64,000 nt of DNA from Niallia alba (GTDB lineage: Bacteria; Bacillota; Bacilli; Bacillales; Cytobacillaceae). Shown in pieces: positions 479-7,851 of the stretch. The stretch's first letter is position 1. Each line of letters starts with the position of its first letter. The stretch spans positions 3,574,001 through 3,638,000 of the forward strand of contig NZ_JABBPK010000001.1 in the NCBI RefSeq assembly GCF_012933555.1, written 5' to 3'. The notes beneath the pieces were generated by a model. The model had not been told where the DNA came from. It saw nothing but the letters and a program-made list of their open reading frames with translations, and made no database searches. Made by a program: the position numbers and the translations under genes.

Positions 479-2242
479 TTATTTCACTCCCTCTTTTTGC
501 TTTGAATAATCTCTTTTTCTAGGTTTGATTAATGAAGTATCGACTTCTTGATAATGGAGATCAGGAGCCTTATCTTCCCCAACAAATTTAGCCATTGTTG
601 TTTTTAAGAAATCCTCGTCATTTCTTTCTGGGAATTCTGGTTTATAGTGCGCTCCACGGCTTTCGTTTCGATTGTATGCACCGAGTGTGATAACACGTGC
701 AAGATGAAGCATATTCTGTAATTGACGAGTGAATACTGCCCCTTGGTTAGACCATTTTGCTGTATCATTAATATTAATATGTTTATATCGCTCTAACAGC
801 TCTTGAATTTTATCGTCTGTTGCTAATAATTTATCGTTGTAACGAACAACTGTAACATTATCGGTCATCCATTCTCCTAATTCCTTATGTAGAACATAAG
901 CATTTTCTGTTCCATCCATTTTCATAATATCCTGCCATTTAGATTCTTCTTCTTTAATAGCGGAATCATATAAGGAAGTAGATAAATCTTCTGCACTTTT
1001 GCTTAATCCACTTATATATTTAACTGCATTCGGGCCTACAACCATTCCACCATAAATCGCTGAAAGTAAGCTGTTTGCTCCTAAACGGTTTGCTCCATGC
1101 TGAGAGTAATCACATTCTCCTGCTGCAAATAGACCTGGAATATTGGTCATTTGATCATAATCCACCCATAATCCCCCCATTGAGTAATGAACTGCAGGGA
1201 AAATTTTCATCGGAAGTTTACGTGGATCTTCGCCAGTGAATTTTTCGTATATCTCAATAATGCCACCTAATTTAATATCTAATTCTTTAGGATTTTTATG
1301 AGATAAGTCTAGATACACCATATTTTCCCCATTGATGCCGAGCTTTTGGTCAACACAAACATGGAAAATCTCACGTGTCGCAATATCCCTAGGCACAAGG
1401 TTTCCGTAGGCTGGATATTTCTCTTCTAAGAAATACCACGGCTTCCCATCTTTATATGTCCAGATACGTCCGCCTTCCCCACGAGCTGATTCACTCATTA
1501 AACGCAGTTTATCGTCACCAGGAATAGCAGTTGGATGAATTTGGATAAATTCCCCATTAGCATAATAGGCTCCCTGTTGATACACAACAGATGCTGCTGA
1601 ACCAGTGTTTATAATAGAGTTCGTAGATTTTCCGAAGATAATTCCAGGGCCTCCAGTTGCCATGATAACAGCATCTGCAGGGAAGGATTTAATCTCCATT
1701 GTTTTTAAGTCCTGTGCTTTAATCCCTCTACATACACCTTCTTCATCTGTGATAATACCAAGGAATTCCCAGCCTTCATACTTAACTACAAGCCCATCAA
1801 CTTCATATCTTCTAACTTGTTCATCTAAAGCATATAGAAGCTGTTGTCCTGTCGTTGCCCCAGCAAAAGCTGTTCGATGATACTGTGTTCCTCCAAAACG
1901 GCGGAAATCAAGTAACCCTTCTGGTGTACGGTTAAACATTACACCCATTCTATCCATCAAATGAATAATTCCAGGGGCTGCTTCAGCCATCGCCTTGACA
2001 GGTGGCTGGTTTGCTAAGAAATCTCCGCCATACACTGTATCGTCAAAGTGCTCCCACGGAGAATCTCCTTCCCCCTTCGTATTTACCGCTCCATTTATTC
2101 CACCTTGGGCACAAACGGAGTGTGATCTTTTTACAGGTACAAGGGAAAATAATTCTAAAGGAGTCCCTGTCTCTGCTACTTTGATTGCTGCCATTAGTCC
2201 TGCTAAACCACCGCCAACGATGATAACTTTCCCTTTCTTCAT
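479..2242 (-). CDS. sdhA: Succinate dehydrogenase flavoprotein subunit
   Basis: The protein has 587 residues, the usual length for the Bacillus enzyme. It oxidises succinate to fumarate in the TCA cycle and respiratory complex II. The N-terminus has the dinucleotide-binding IIVGGGLAGL motif. The SHSVCAQGGINGA segment contains the His (about residue 41) that carries covalent FAD in this family, and HGANRLGANSLL carries an active-site Arg. The ATG at 2242 is preceded by GGAG at good spacing. It lies 47 bp after sdhC and abuts sdhB, so it belongs to sdhCAB. Expression may be altered by the insertion sequence upstream of sdhC. Confidence 0.98.
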   Translation of the reverse strand: MKKGKVIIVGGGLAGLMAAIKVAETGTPLELFSLVPVKRSHSVCAQGGINGAVNTKGEGDSPWEHFDDTVYGGDFLANQPPVKAMAEAAPGIIHLMDRMGVMFNRTPEGLLDFRRFGGTQYHRTAFAGATTGQQLLYALDEQVRRYEVDGLVVKYEGWEFLGIITDEEGVCRGIKAQDLKTMEIKSFPADAVIMATGGPGIIFGKSTNSIINTGSAASVVYQQGAYYANGEFIQIHPTAIPGDDKLRLMSESARGEGGRIWTYKDGKPWYFLEEKYPAYGNLVPRDIATREIFHVCVDQKLGINGENMVYLDLSHKNPKELDIKLGGIIEIYEKFTGEDPRKLPMKIFPAVHYSMGGLWVDYDQMTNIPGLFAAGECDYSQHGANRLGANSLLSAIYGGMVVGPNAVKYISGLSKSAEDLSTSLYDSAIKEEESKWQDIMKMDGTENAYVLHKELGEWMTDNVTVVRYNDKLLATDDKIQELLERYKHININDTAKWSNQGAVFTRQLQNMLHLARVITLGAYNRNESRGAHYKPEFPERNDEDFLKTTMAKFVGEDKAPDLHYQEVDTSLIKPRKRDYSKQKEGVK

Positions 2243-2289: not shown

Positions 2290-2898
2290 TTAAACAAACG
2301 CGAATATTGCTCGTACACCTACTATTGTTAATGCAACAAATATTCCTAGCGTTACATATGTATTAATTCGTTGAGATTTAGGAGAAACAGTGATTCCCCA
2401 GCTTACACAGAATGACCACAATCCATTAGAGAAGTGGAAAATGGTTGAGATAACTCCTACTAAATAAAAAATAAGCATCCAAGGGTTTGCCAAATTTTCG
2501 CTCATCATCTCATAGTTCACTTCTTGCCCTAATTGAGCGGCTACCCTTGTTTCCCATACATGCCAAACAATAAATATTAATGTAATGATCCCTGTCACCC
2601 TTTGAATATAGAACATCCAATTTCGGAAAAATCCGTAGTTTTTAGTATTATTTTTGGCTGTAATCGCAATATAAATTCCATATATTGCATGATACAATAT
2701 CGGTAAAAATATTACAAAAATTTCTAAAAAATACCGAAAAGGTAAATGCTCCATAAAGCCAGCTGCCTTGTTAAAGGCTTCTGCGCCTCTAGTTGCAAAG
2801 TGATTGACAACTAAATGTTGGATCAAAAATACTCCCACTGGAATCACCCCTAATAAAGAGTGAAGCCTTCTGAATAAAAACTCTCGATTTGCTGCCAT
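2290..2898 (-). CDS. sdhC: Succinate dehydrogenase cytochrome b558 membrane subunit
   Basis: This 202-residue protein has five hydrophobic helices and is the diheme membrane anchor of the Gram-positive type. His28, His70, His113 and His155 fall at exactly the positions I remember as heme ligands in B. subtilis SdhC. It passes electrons to menaquinone and holds SdhA and SdhB at the membrane. The ATG is preceded by a GGGGGG ribosome site. Only 15 bases separate the start codon from the 8-bp target duplication of an insertion sequence, so the original 5' leader is interrupted just upstream of the ribosome site. First gene of sdhCAB. Confidence 0.97.
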   Translation of the reverse strand: MAANREFLFRRLHSLLGVIPVGVFLIQHLVVNHFATRGAEAFNKAAGFMEHLPFRYFLEIFVIFLPILYHAIYGIYIAITAKNNTKNYGFFRNWMFYIQRVTGIITLIFIVWHVWETRVAAQLGQEVNYEMMSENLANPWMLIFYLVGVISTIFHFSNGLWSFCVSWGITVSPKSQRINTYVTLGIFVALTIVGVRAIFAFV

Positions 2899-2913
2899 AA
2901 AATTCCCCCCTAA

Positions 2914-2921
2914 TTGATGAC
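2914..2921. repeat. Left 8-bp target-site duplication of the IS
   Basis: TTGATGAC here is repeated exactly at 4760-4767 on the other side of the insertion sequence. It marks a recent insertion into the sdhC leader. Confidence 0.85.
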
Positions 2922-3063
2922 CGTATTGTCAAAACTTTTATAGTAAATAGGTTATTAAATCCTATCTGAGAGGGCTTTATAAGCAAAAAAATTGCCACCC
3001 CCTGAATTCTAAGGATAATTGAGGTTACGACACTCTCAACAACCTAGAAAAGGAAGTGACAAT

Positions 3064-4503
3064 TTGTACCCTCAAATTATAACCTATTTATTAACTTTTA
3101 TAAACTATCAAGAACAACTAATTCGAACATTGCTTACTTTATTGATTGGTAAGAGTATGTTTGATAAGCCTACTGAACAGCCAGTAAATAAACCATATCG
3201 AAAACTTCAAGTGGACGACCTTCCGGTCATTGAAGTTCTGGAACAGCTTGATTATCGAGTTCTTCTTAGTGAATATCTAGAGAAGAACGGGAAACCACTT
3301 AAACCTGTTCAAAGGCGTAAGAATGCAAAAGTTTCCGTACCTAAATCCATGAACTGCCCAAAGTGTGGTGCTCCATCAGATTATCTTTATGCCAACAATG
3401 GAGATAAAGGCCAGTATCAATGCAAGGTGTGTACAGAGCTCTTCAGTGAAAAGAACCGTTATTCTAAGGAAGCCATCCTGAAGTGTCCTCATTGTTCCAA
3501 AACTCTCGAGAAAATAAAAGAAAGAAAAGATTTTCACGTGTTTAAGTGCAAGAACAATGACTGTTCTTATTATCAAAAGAAGCTCAATGGGATGACTTCA
3601 AAAGAAAAGAAAAGGTTCAAAAAGGACCCTCAAGCATTTAAATTAAGATACATTTTCCGTCAGTTTCATATCGATTTCCAGCCGTTATCCAAGGAATCAC
3701 CAGAACTGCCGGCCGTTGACTTATCAAAGATTTATGCATCACCACATACATTAGGATTAATCCTAACCTATCATGTAAACTATGGCCTTTCGGCCCGTAA
3801 AACAGCTGCGATTATGCAGGACGTACACGGAGTGATGATTTCACATCAGACTGTATTGAACTACGAAAATAGCGTAGCTTTATTACTTAAACCTTATGTG
3901 GATCACTATCCCTATGAACTTTCAGACCAATTCTGCGGTGATGAAACGTATATCAGAGTAAACGGTCGATGGCATTATTTATTTTTCTTTTTTGACGCCG
4001 TGAAAAAGATTATTCTTTCGTATCCGGTGTCGCCTAATCGAGACACAGCAACAGCCATTCGAGCAATTGATGAGGTCTTAATCAAGATGAAAGAGATTCC
4101 AGAAAATCTGACCTTTGTGGTAGACGGGAATCCAATCTATCTTTTAGCCCAACATTTCTTCGCTCAACATGGGATTTCATTCGATGTGAAGCAGGTCATT
4201 GGATTAACCAATGAGGACCCTGTTTCGACCGAATATAGACCACTGAAACAAATAATTGAGAGACTTAACCGCACCTTTAAGGGCAATTATCGCTCCACTC
4301 ATGGATTCGGCTCTGAACATGGTTCCATTTCATACGTCACCTTATTTACGGCCTACTTTAACTTTTTGCGTCCGCATGCCGCCTTAGAAGGAAAAGTGCC
4401 CGTAGTGAATCCAGAACTCAAGGGGCTTCCAACAATGCCAGCACGTTGGACAAAGCTCATTGGATTAGCACAACAATGGATAGTAGAACAAAGACAAGCC
4501 TAA
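3064..4503 (+). CDS. DDE-type IS transposase with zinc-ribbon N-terminal region
   Basis: About 479 residues from the TTG at 3064, which has AAAGGAAG at good spacing; an upstream in-frame TTG at 3019 would add 15 residues but has no ribosome site. The N-terminal half has two CxxC pairs (CPKCGAP...CKVCTE) and then CPHCSK with further cysteines, i.e. zinc ribbons that probably bind the IS ends. The catalytic core has CGDETYIRV, FVVDGNPIY and IIERLNRTFK, a plausible D, D, E triad in an RNase H-like fold. The sequence is intact with no frameshift. I recognise the class, not the exact IS name. Confidence 0.9.
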   Translation: MYPQIITYLLTFINYQEQLIRTLLTLLIGKSMFDKPTEQPVNKPYRKLQVDDLPVIEVLEQLDYRVLLSEYLEKNGKPLKPVQRRKNAKVSVPKSMNCPKCGAPSDYLYANNGDKGQYQCKVCTELFSEKNRYSKEAILKCPHCSKTLEKIKERKDFHVFKCKNNDCSYYQKKLNGMTSKEKKRFKKDPQAFKLRYIFRQFHIDFQPLSKESPELPAVDLSKIYASPHTLGLILTYHVNYGLSARKTAAIMQDVHGVMISHQTVLNYENSVALLLKPYVDHYPYELSDQFCGDETYIRVNGRWHYLFFFFDAVKKIILSYPVSPNRDTATAIRAIDEVLIKMKEIPENLTFVVDGNPIYLLAQHFFAQHGISFDVKQVIGLTNEDPVSTEYRPLKQIIERLNRTFKGNYRSTHGFGSEHGSISYVTLFTAYFNFLRPHAALEGKVPVVNPELKGLPTMPARWTKLIGLAQQWIVEQRQA

Positions 4504-4553
4504 CTTTTTGTTTAGCTGAGCCCTTAAGCTAATTCAGCAATCGGCGGAGCGAA

Positions 4554-4679
4554 CTCTTGACAAACCGAACTTGCCAATGGTTTAAAATGGAAACAACCAA
4601 GGGCTTATTTGGTATGCCTTCTTTTGTTCCCTTCGCCCTTGTTAAACAATCCTCAAACCATTGGCGTGTTTGTCAAGAG
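4554..4679. repeat. Long inverted repeat in the IS right end
   Basis: CTCTTGACAAAC (4554-4565) and GCCAATGGTTT (4573-4583) are mirrored by AAACCATTGGC (4655-4665) and GTTTGTCAAGAG (4668-4679), with shorter nested complementary stretches (AAGGGC and GCCCTT) inside. The transcript could fold into one long hairpin. It lies downstream of the transposase and inside the IS, so it is part of the element. No T-run follows, so it is not a simple terminator. Confidence 0.75.
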
Positions 4680-4759
4680 CGATTGCGGCGCATCTCCATC
4701 CAGTAAATAGGAGAGAAACTAACCCTTTAGGTAGTTTTCATAAATCTTTTGACACTACC

Positions 4760-4767
4760 TTGATGAC
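4760..4767. repeat. Right 8-bp target-site duplication of the IS
   Basis: Exact second copy of TTGATGAC, matching 2914-2921. Confidence 0.85.
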
Positions 4768-4830
4768 ATACTCCCTTTGCCTCTAAAGCGATAACAAAAC
4801 CAAAAATTCTTACAATTTAGTGACAATTTA

Positions 4831-4859
4831 ATTGTACTCTTAAAAAAAAATGCGGTCAA
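4831..4859 (-). promoter_or_regulatory. Probable native sdhCAB promoter, now cut off by the IS
   Basis: On the minus strand TTGACC (4859-4854), a 17-base spacer and TACAAT (4836-4831) make a strong sigma-A promoter reading toward sdhC. Start of transcription would be near 4824, about 57 bases before the IS insertion point. Removing the IS and one duplication would restore a leader of roughly 75 bases before the sdhC ATG. The rest of 4860-5310 is AT-rich; I see no further gene in it. Confidence 0.65.
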
Positions 4860-5310
4860 GAAAACGGATACATTAAATAAATTTTCTTTCGCTTTTTTTC
4901 TATTTATATGTGAAAAAAAGTAAAAATTTCCTCCTTTCTATTATTCGCATAAATTTATCACGCAAATCAAATAATAGAATTATCACCAAAAGCTTTTATA
5001 CTTAACGGTAACATTGTAAATCCCTAAAGTTTTAAACAACTTAGAATATTGTGTAATTACAAACTACATTGTCCTTGTAAGTACTTTTTAAACTTTCTAA
5101 TTTAAATATCATTCGTTTTTCTTATGATTTTTTTCCGTTTTTACAGTATACTATTTAGACAATATATTTTATTCTATTTTATTTGGAATCCATTCTTCTT
5201 CCTAAACAATGGTATGGAATTACCGTGAATACTTAAAATGGTTACTTTTTTTAGAAGATAATTCTTGTAATTAAGTGAATATAATAGAATGGTAGAAAGA
5301 GGAGAGCATA

Positions 5311-5772
5311 TTGAGTGATTTAACATCCGTAGAAGAAAAAACACAAGTGGAAACTGACCCACTTACTGTTCCCGCATATGGATACGAATTAATTCGAGAA
5401 ATACTTATCCCAGAATTATTAGGTCGAGATACTCCTGACCTATTGTATTGGGCAGGTAAACGTATTGCTCGATTATTTCCTTTACATGCAATAGAAGAAG
5501 CTTATACCTTTTTTCAAAAAGTCGGATGGGGAAATTTAGAAGTAGTTAAACAAACAAAAAATGAAATTACTTATCAATTATCCAGTGATCTTATCGAAAA
5601 AAGATTAAAAGAAAAAGGGAAATGTACATTTCAACTTGAAGCTGGTTATTTAGCACAGCAATATGAACAAACGAAAAAAGTTATTGCTGAGGCCTTTGAA
5701 GACCCAAAAAGAAAAGATAAAAAAATAACCATTACGGTTCGTTGGGATAGTAAAGATCCAGTAGTAGAATAA
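5311..5772 (+). CDS. yslB: YslB family protein (DUF2507)
   Basis: A 153-residue soluble protein that I recognise as YslB, from its sequence and its place next to sdhC in Bacillus. Family members belong to DUF2507, which I recall as having a V4R-like fold; no biochemical role is established that I know of. The start is a TTG at 5311 with GAGGAGA five bases upstream. It is divergent from sdhCAB and ends in a strong hairpin terminator shared with the converging chemoreceptor gene. Confidence 0.88.
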   Translation: MSDLTSVEEKTQVETDPLTVPAYGYELIREILIPELLGRDTPDLLYWAGKRIARLFPLHAIEEAYTFFQKVGWGNLEVVKQTKNEITYQLSSDLIEKRLKEKGKCTFQLEAGYLAQQYEQTKKVIAEAFEDPKRKDKKITITVRWDSKDPVVE

Positions 5773-5777
5773 AGAGA

Positions 5778-5837
5778 TGACTCCATATGACGAAAGGAAT
5801 TTTTTATTAGTTCCTTGTTGCCATATGGAGTTTTTTT
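5778..5837. terminator. Bidirectional terminator between yslB and the chemoreceptor gene
   Basis: ACTCCATATG (5780-5789) pairs with CATATGGAGT (5822-5831), with an inner AAGGAA/TTCCTT stem, followed by a run of T. The chemoreceptor stop codon overlaps the T-run. Confidence 0.85.
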
Positions 5838-7851
5838 AAATAGTAAATGTATTTATCTTTTCTTGAAGTTCGACAGCTACATCTGATAATGAGCTGGCTG
5901 CTGCTTTTATTTCCTGCATTGCGGCTAATTGTTCTTCTGTTGAACTTGCCATTTCCTCTGAGTAAGCTGCATTCTCGCTTGAAATAGTTAATAATTCATT
6001 GGCTGATACACTTACAGCTTGTACCTGCTCTGCTATTTGATTAGACAGGTTAGCAACTTCCGTCATTTGTGGTGAGATAGTTTTTACGCGCTGAATAATA
6101 CCATTAAAAGCTTCTGTCGTTTGCTTTGATGCCAATATTCCATTTTGAACACTTTTCGTAACTGCCCCCATCCCTTCGACGGTCGTTTTTGTATTCATAA
6201 GAATGTTTGTAATAATATCACCGATTTCTTGCGCAGATTGTTCGGACTGCTTGGCAAGTTTTCCAACTTCCGTCGCAACTACGGCAAATCCTTTTCCATG
6301 CTCTCCTGCTCTTGCTGCTTCTATTGCAGCATTTAAGGCAAGCAAATTAGTTTGGTTAGCTATGCCACTAATAGTCTCTACAATAGATTCTATTTCTTGC
6401 GAGCGTTCTTGTAAGGACAGTATTTGCTGGTTCGATGATTCCACCGAATGATAAATTTCATTCATCTGGCTCAGCGTATTGTTTACTGTATTCTCTCCTT
6501 CTTGCGCCTGTATGACCGTCTCATTTGTCAATGTGGAAACAATTTTTGCACTTTCAGCAACTTTGTTAATATGATTCTCTATGTCCTTTAATGCATTAGT
6601 ATTCTTTGTTAAATTATCTTTTTGCATTTCAGCCTTACTTGCTACTTCTTCCAATGCCCCAGCAACGTATTCAGATGCTGAAGCTGTTTGATCCGAGCTT
6701 GCAAGCAATTGCTCAGAAGAAGCTGCAACATGTTCCGATTTTTCATTTACATCTTTTATAATATTATGTAGATTTTCAGCCATATTCTTTAATGCTAGAG
6801 CTACTTGGCCAATTTCATCTTCTCTAAGAATGTCTACTTTCTCTGTTAAATTTCCTTCACTCATTTTTATTGCTGATTCCTTTAATTTGTTTAATGGTTT
6901 AATAAAAGAATTGATAAGTATGAATATAAAGAAACCGCTCACTAATAGAGAGACCACTATTACTAAAACTGTTTGATATAGTATAGGAAAAGTCATATCA
7001 TTAATTTCTGATTTATCTACAACGCCAGCGAGTTTCCAGCCCACTGTTTCATTGGTTATATATTGCATAATATATTTATTTCCACCGTCAGTTAGATCGA
7101 TACTTCCCTCGTTTTTGTCAAACATTTGATTGAACACAGACTGTTTCGCAGTTGTACCTGCTTCTTCTTTAGGATGAACGATATATTTTTTATCTTGATT
7201 GAAAATAATGATAAAGCCTTTATCTCCTATTTTCACATTTGAAACTAAGCTTTTTATTCGCTCTAAGCTTACTTCCATCCCTACTACACCTTTTTTATCC
7301 TCCGTCTGCTTTGAAACTGCAACAACTAAACTGCCTGTGGCAATTGATGTATAAGGACTAGAAACATAAACAGCCCCTTCTTTTTCCATCCCGTTTGTAT
7401 ACCATGCATCTTTCCTTGGATCATAGCCTTTACCAAGAATGCTATTAGGAGATTGGATGAGTGTTCCTGCTTTCGAACCAAAGAAAACGCTCTCAATTTC
7501 TGGGTTCAATTCCATGTATTTATCAAATTCTGTCCTTACCGTCGTGTTGCTTTCTTCTGATTGTTCATCAAATTTAATTTTCTCCGAATAAATAACCGTT
7601 TGATAAATACTGGTACCTAATGTATTTCTAATGATATTGTCCACAATTTTCACATTTTCATGGGAAGTGTTTAAAAATTGATTTTCCATTTCATTTCTCG
7701 CTTTTATATAAGAAAACGTGCTTATAATTAAACTTGGAATAATTAAAATTAGGGCAAAAGAAATAATCATTTTTGTTTTTAACTTAATCTTAAATCTTTT
7801 TGAACTGTTTTTTGTAGTTCTATTTACTCTATCCCAAATCTTCATCTTCAT
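5836..7851 (-). CDS. Methyl-accepting chemotaxis protein, double-Cache sensor
   Basis: A 671-residue transmembrane chemoreceptor. A first membrane helix is at about 27-47, a long extracellular dCache-type ligand domain at about 50-285, a second helix at about 288-312, a HAMP linker at about 313-365, and then the cytoplasmic coiled-coil signalling domain. The hairpin tip reads [20 protein letters not shown], the CheA/CheW contact site of all such receptors. The sensor has DPRKDAWY, like the amino-acid-binding dCache motif, but the usual later acidic residue seems to be Ser (PYTSIATG), so the ligand is uncertain. AAGGAGG precedes the ATG. It is a stand-alone gene inserted between yslB and lysC, with no other chemotaxis genes nearby. 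Confidence 0.95.

Follow-up and report, generated by a model that had tools for sequence, protein, structure and literature searches.

A family of DDE insertion sequences that sit 23 or 24 bp ahead of the ATG in Shine-Dalgarno-ATG motifs and share one orientation, with a copy in front of sdhC in Niallia alba

The insertion sequence (IS) that separates sdhC from its promoter in Niallia alba belongs to a family with a strict address. Its members lie in a single orientation, left end towards the gene, 23 or 24 bp before the ATG of a Shine-Dalgarno (SD)-ATG motif; the spacing is precise to one base, and the rule persists in distant members. An earlier, sequence-only reading of the locus had treated the insertion as a one-off event, but it follows this family rule. 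Judging from the comparison of targets and element ends, we consider it probable that these DDE elements insert in this way because the transposase complex itself reads the SD-ATG motif on DNA, measuring its distance from the ATG. The window analysed is a stretch of 64,000 nucleotides of the N. alba genome, in which the following features were located (TSD, target-site duplication).

2922-4759, plus strand: the IS, 1838 bp, with ends shared by ten copies (nine at 100%, one at 99%) and perfect TSDs
2914-2921: left copy of the 8-bp target duplication TTGATGAC, exact
4760-4767: right copy of TTGATGAC, exact
2905-2910, minus strand: SD of sdhC, GGGGGG, which is the G-run of the target motif
2896-2898, minus strand: ATG of sdhC, 23 bp from the IS end
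2290-2898, minus strand: sdhC, cytochrome b558 subunit (TIGR02046, 186.9 bits against a cut-off of 96)
479-2242, minus strand: the next gene of the operon, which from its sequence we take to be sdhA
4831-4859, minus strand: native sdh promoter TTGACC-17-TACAAT (10/12), now 1.84 kb further off
3064-4503, plus strand: transposase ORF with a DDE domain, 479 aa if the start is TTG 3064; the frame is open from 3019
2992-3019, plus strand: likely transposase promoter TTGCCA-16-GATAAT
3019-3028, plus strand: left arm of a leader inverted repeat read from the sequence, overlapping the -10
3066-3075: partner arm of that repeat, also read from the sequence, on the transposase start
3076-3104, minus strand: candidate outward promoter TTTATA-17-TATAAT directed towards sdhC, a 10/12 site
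4535-4689, plus strand: structured RNA element 3' of the transposase, on the sense strand, from conservation and covariation
4735-4742, minus strand: TATGAAAA in the right end, with the ATG at 18 bp from the tip; almost all family members have it

The description of an intact 1.84-kb IS with inverted ends and an exact 8-bp duplication therefore holds, the terminal repeats being imperfect (CGTATTGTCAAAAC / GGTAGTGTCAAAAG). The distance of 16 bases to the sdhC ATG given in the earlier reading is that of the duplication; the IS itself starts 24 bases before the ATG, with 23 bp between the two, and lies just beyond the sdhC SD. The sigma-A promoter said to be stranded beyond the IS is indeed present at 4859-4831 (minus strand), and it is kept in the four sibling genomes that were aligned.

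The source genome (G000, 5.24 Mb, 2 contigs) contains this IS ten times, with nine copies at 100% and one at 99%, and a second IS, 79% related, five times; perfect 8-bp TSDs flank all 15. An assembly collapse at the sdhC site, named in the earlier reading as a possible objection, is very unlikely because nine more copies of full length, eight of them at 100% and one at 99%, and the five relatives are flanked in this way. In each of the 15 copies the strand that reads outward from the left end has an ATG, at 23 bp in 13 and at 24 bp in two (L005 and L010), and a G-rich SD, weak in L011, lies in between. Ten of these target ATGs open ORFs of 94-409 aa, the remaining five (L005, L008, L010, L011 and L012) ORFs of only 3-32 aa. 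Among the targets are sdhC, flaG, whiA and the gene of an IS110 transposase; in this last case (L002, 23 bp before the ATG) one IS is nested on another.

The IS before sdhC was absent from all 12 same-genus genomes compared, so the insertion is private to the source genome and the earlier proviso that it might be fixed in all relatives does not apply. In four siblings (L192-L195) the site is uninterrupted and about 30 bp around it are identical to the joined flanks; in the eight others the roughly 45 bases before the sdhC ATG are uninterrupted and G-rich. No IS tip was found in the 3.6 kb covered in each of the 12; five siblings gave one tip match each with 2 mismatches, at one common place about 1.24 kb from one end of the locus and in a context unlike that of an IS end. 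Within the genus, close relatives of the transposase were detected in just two of 13 genomes, G000 and G004; all remaining matches are weak and partial (25-33% identity).

Relatives were searched in genomes of the order (matches in 30 of 397) and of the phylum (14 of 398), both samples including G000; further members came from 78 loci on genome contigs (from the best 80 of 139), three viral contigs and 7 of the 15 plasmid records matched. Element ends were called from IS-end motifs and their spacing alone, independently of the target. The 125 oriented calls correspond to 90 distinct left flanks, of which 83 were kept. The seven removed are L075, L080 and L117 (tandem copies in which the left flank is another IS end, with an ATG at 26), one site of L100 with an N in its flank (another L100 site was kept), and chance ends whose TSDs were poor, two in L006 and one in L046; otherwise a mismatched TSD was no ground for removal. 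An ATG was present at 22-24 bp in 79 of the 83 left flanks (at 22 in one, 23 in 67 and 24 in 11), compared with 4 of the 83 right flanks of the same sites and 5.6% of 22,500 random draws. The binomial probability of this count is 1.9e-93 under an independence of sites that is only roughly true within one genome. Among those of the 90 left flanks that have perfect TSDs the ATG is at 22-24 in 63 of 67. A scorable SD lies between IS and ATG in 73 of the 79 ATG sites, the window copy having 23 bp and GGGGGG. The four exceptions are L048, L092, L096 and L127; by eye, a TTG is found near the expected position in L048 and L096 and an ATT in L127.

The rule is also obeyed by Lactobacillaceae members that are about 50% identical. 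Beyond the 83 sites, distant elements with perfect TSDs have the ATG at 23 (L182, L183, L184, L185) or 24 (L181, L189); L157, L168 and L180, likewise with perfect TSDs, have it at 24, and L158 has it at 23, the distance growing by one in L180 and L158 if the TSD is read shifted. L169 is ambiguous (22 or 24) and L175 has an ATT at 24 in place of an ATG. The genomes of L157-L180, except G000 and G059, belong to the same phylum and are not marked as of the same class. By eye, an ATG was also seen at 23 in L154 (7 of 8 TSD letters), L155 and L149 (no TSD) and at 24 in L138 and L134 (no TSD found). L155 comes from elsewhere in the phylum and has an ATG at 23, but a recognisable TSD is absent, as is the hairpin described below. 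Ends could not be called for L186-L188, L190, L152 and the more distant G766 and G489 loci, and no target rule was visible in L145; all these loci speak neither for the rule nor clearly against it. Next to the IS target of L168 there are direct repeats (999-1264) that recur about every 42 bp. Among the matches listed in open PMC literature, whose titles and abstract beginnings were covered, none describes IS insertion at an SD-ATG, and an IS with so precise a target class was not found described there.

The ruler ends at the ATG: over the 73 sites where an SD could be scored, the distance from IS to ATG has a variance of 0.125 vs 1.94 for IS-SD, and 2.19 for SD-ATG. The offset itself seems to belong to the element, since all 5 sites of a Geobacillus clade, in which full-length members are 89-91% identical to L059, have an offset of 24, as against 8 of 76 elsewhere, where 23 is usual (p 5e-5); one of the five, L070, lacks both a matching TSD and a clear SD. 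The target motif can be written as AGGGGG, about 7 nt, ATGAA. For comparison of its frequencies a crude ORF/SD picker supplied 38 background starts from the window and 201 from other loci; it takes only starts with an SD-like match and may include some target genes. GGGGG occurs in 41 of 79 targets vs 3 of 38 and 35 of 201 background starts, and ATG in 79 of 83 vs 24 of 38 and 137 of 201. The bases that follow are also biased, with A at +4 in 59 of 79 targets vs 77 of 137 background starts and A at +5 in 57 of 79 vs 60 of 137. The preference for GGGGG over GGAGG, and for ATG over GTG or TTG, suggests that a DNA motif is read; that 19 of the 79 target ATGs open only ORFs of less than 60 aa suggests that it is read as a motif rather than as a gene.

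These data bear on two accounts in which the transposase does not read DNA. If it found 30S initiation complexes on nascent mRNA and cut the adjacent DNA, an SD-ATG site would be expected, and the insertion point does lie near the upstream edge of the ribosome footprint. A ribosome-based choice, however, fits poorly with the near absence from targets of GTG and TTG (64 of the 201 background starts at other loci), with the base preference in the G-run and with targets that open only very short ORFs, and we give this account hardly any weight. Random insertion followed by selection, in which only copies in 5' leaders with an intact ribosome-binding site (RBS) survive, deserves next to none: landing upstream of an RBS is mild, and a fixed orientation is partly selectable if one end alone has a promoter, but neither the one-base ruler nor the GGGGG and ATG preferences would be expected. 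Taken together, the target evidence supports the reading of a DNA motif and weighs against a choice made by ribosomes or by selection alone.

A third account gives the reading to RNA. Between the two ISs of G000 the hairpin region 3' of the transposase is 91% identical (141/155) vs 76% for the coding region (1096/1437), and just beyond it identity falls to 15/45. Fitted to 22 members (L001, which has the sequence of the window copy, and 21 others), the structure pairs in 92.0% of 810 cells, as against 36-47% for slid structures; it was hand-written from one of these sequences, which are related. Two-sided changes were found in 17 of 37 pairs (72 cells vs 23.5 in shuffles), and G-U cells (31) outnumber A-C cells (13), which suggests an RNA on the transposase-sense strand. 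Rfam gave no match at E up to 1 in 2800-5000 of the window. The apical loop has the form GGG-N9/10-NTG, often with UCCCCUU, and resembles the SD-ATG target; by eye its triplet is ATG in 25 of 29 members and NTG in 29 of 29. Pairing of this RNA with the target was nevertheless rated low, as improbable, because L184 (Pediococcus) and L185 (L. brevis) obey the rule with exact TSDs and such a hairpin was not seen in them, nor in L155, so it is not universal (fold z -3.7 for the window copy, -1.85 for L185, +1.78 or, in another stretch, -0.21 for L184). Moreover, the loop of L135 and L136 is without UCCCC, L157 and L158 carry a different hairpin, and that of L183 is across the ORF. The broader proposal that the family's own structured RNA reads SD-ATG on DNA, under which the DDE transposase would be RNA-guided and its address universal among bacteria, appears very doubtful. 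It would need another RNA segment in the two rule-obeying members; a weaker or different RNA is possible there. A role of the hairpin in control of transposase expression or in complex assembly is as likely as one as a guide. Its arms might also be mere copies of the terminal repeats, which is disfavoured by the Heyndrickxia-type L046, in which the tips are altered (TTGTAAAA) and TTGACAAAC is kept in the arms. In L183 (3001-4434 and upstream) the tips are changed (AGTAATTCAAAA) and a TGTCAAGAG hairpin is on the opposite side of the ORF.

The transposase is the likeliest reader of the target, because the right ends of the elements carry a TATGAAAA similar to it. An ATG lies 17-18 bp inside the tip in 42 of 45 distinct right ends called, within TATGAAAA in 39; the three without it (L006, L025, L085) look mis-called. 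No ATG was found at the corresponding place in 44 of 45 left ends. In distant members, the tips of which have otherwise changed, ATGAAA or a close form is retained in the right end. The ATGAA of the target resembles this right-end motif and the left-end C-run resembles the complement of the SD; the resemblance is imperfect, since the ATG is 18 bp in from the right tip, whereas in the target its distance to the cuts is 15 or 23 bp. The modules that read the target would thus probably also bind the element's own ends, TATGAAAA at the right and the C-run near the left. An internal GGGGGTGGCAA that might have been a further copy of the target is more likely part of the transposase promoter, since its C-run is found at the same position ahead of the -10 even in distant members; CCCCC at 2998-3002 is conserved in most members.

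The protein matches Pfam DDE_Tnp_IS240 (PF13610; 36.8 bits, cut-off 27) and scores 76.5 bits with the NCBIfam IS6 model NF033587, below the cut-off of 125. It contains two zinc-ribbon-like pairs of cysteine motifs, the eight cysteines of which are invariant across 25 members, the Pfam zinc-ribbon matches being below cut-off. A structure model of modest confidence (pLDDT 66.9) shows an integrase-like core, for which the fold search gave only the generic DDE/integrase fold (best 6xgx, ISCth4, E 1.5e-5) and the PDB sequence search a best E of 0.008.

The family shares with IS6/IS26/IS240 the PF13610 domain above cut-off and an 8-bp TSD (15 of 15 G000 copies). IS6-family elements are about 0.8 kb long with a transposase of about 230 aa; unlike them, the present element has 1838 bp and 479 aa, zinc-ribbon-like motifs, a strict target and a hairpin RNA, and stays below the IS6 equivalog cut-off. 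The IS6 family is further marked by cointegrates formed by replication, on which the observation made here is that of tandem IS-8bp-IS arrays. The IS110 family also consists of small elements with a structured noncoding end; these are RNA-guided, whereas the transposase here has no IS110 match in the Pfam and NCBIfam profile searches and a guide role is disfavoured. Other selective ISs are known. According to published reports, some are highly selective for the repeated extragenic motif REP (PMC1525189), and IS30 of E. coli makes 2-bp duplications and chooses its targets in two ways, at hot spots and at its own ends, with junctions exclusively of the IRL-IRR kind and with tandem dimers (PMC9333248). 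REP-targeting ISs differ in that they recognise palindromes and not gene starts. IS30 resembles this family in its fixed target motif and tandems, here of the form IS-8bp-IS, and differs in having neither its 8-bp TSD nor its SD-ATG target; no IS30 match was obtained in Pfam or NCBIfam profile searches. A transposase addressing its targets with own-end modules would be comparable to IS30, which targets its own repeats (PMC9333248). For IS10 an inward transposase promoter is reported together with an outward transcript that is antisense to the start of the transposase gene (PMC5006887), as are copies lying between promoter and ORF, with outward promoters (PMC4574204). The inward and candidate outward promoters of the present IS resemble pIN/pOUT of IS10 in arrangement, with no claim of homology. 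IS10 makes a 9-bp TSD and is not known to follow an SD-ATG rule.

The preferred reading, a transposase complex that reads SD-ATG on DNA, would have several consequences if true. The yeast elements Ty1 and Ty3 choose harmless addresses next to genes, and a one-way reader of translation-start DNA with one-base precision would be their bacterial counterpart. It would explain how such ISs multiply in gene-dense genomes and rewire promoters across the genome, here that of complex II, while coding sequence stays unbroken, and how they can lie before infB. Since the motif is present at many genes, the system is a possible tool to insert regulatory DNA at gene starts of laboratory strains, and the target reader would be a tractable structural question.

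The native sdh promoter being cut off, transcription of sdhCAB must come through or from the IS, as was first proposed. The terminal TTGACA noted then is present without a -10, and it cannot serve as an outward -35 because the target rule places the SD there: the -10 of such a hybrid promoter would fall on target positions 12-17, the G-run. The companion idea of an outward promoter deeper in the IS received some support from the 10/12 site at 3104-3076. A promoter-like site 146-170 bp inside the left tip (about 155 bp) is the best outward hit in 32 of 40 members, the best being elsewhere in the other 8; a best score of 10/12 was reached in 25 of 40, always at this site, and at least 10/12 in 36 of 400 mononucleotide shuffles. 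It persists in varied letters (TTTATA-17-TATAAT, TTGATA-18-AATAAT, TTGATT-18-TATAAT), which coding constraint could explain in part as the site overlaps the first transposase codons and the members are related. Scanning 2300-5300 gave 16 promoter-like sites vs 9.6 (sd 3.0) in shuffles; the outward site of the window alone is weak evidence.

Expression of sdhCAB is expected from 3104-3076 and/or by read-through from 4859-4831, with altered regulation; it would start in the IS or pass through it, the native leader being lost or displaced. Loss of complex II expression through the insertion, in a strain able to live without the enzyme, would fit a promoter moved 1.84 kb away, but is unlikely, as sdhC, sdhA and the RBS are intact, a pattern scan of the minus strand in 2300-5300 found no intrinsic terminator, and in the nusA operon a Heyndrickxia member (L086) separates ylxQ from infB, the ATG of which follows after 23 bp. 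IF-2, the product of infB, is essential, and such insertions therefore allow enough downstream expression. More generally, even essential genes would tolerate an insertion ahead of them, because their RBS and start are left in place and the IS drives transcription outward, from the site about 155 bp inside its left end, and/or passes host transcription on to the target gene. In L086 the gene that we presume to be nusA (5305-6515) is spread over two overlapping frames, through a frameshift or an error in sequencing. The arms of the leader repeat cover the -10 and the transposase start, so that this start could be hidden in transcripts that come in from outside. An inverted repeat in the left ends of L157 and L158 likewise links the -10 to the start of the transposase (GGTATAATTGAGT / ACTCAATTATACC in L157) and could apparently mask that start in read-through transcripts.

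Tandem IS-8bp-IS arrays were found in L075-L078, L080, L110, L117 and L050. In Bacillus dakarensis, L077 has TTCCCATT both outside and inside the array, while L076 and L078 have TTCCCATT inside and other TSDs outside. The dimers thus seem to move as units in which the inner 8 bp record an earlier home, because the inner TTCCCATT matches the TSD of L077.
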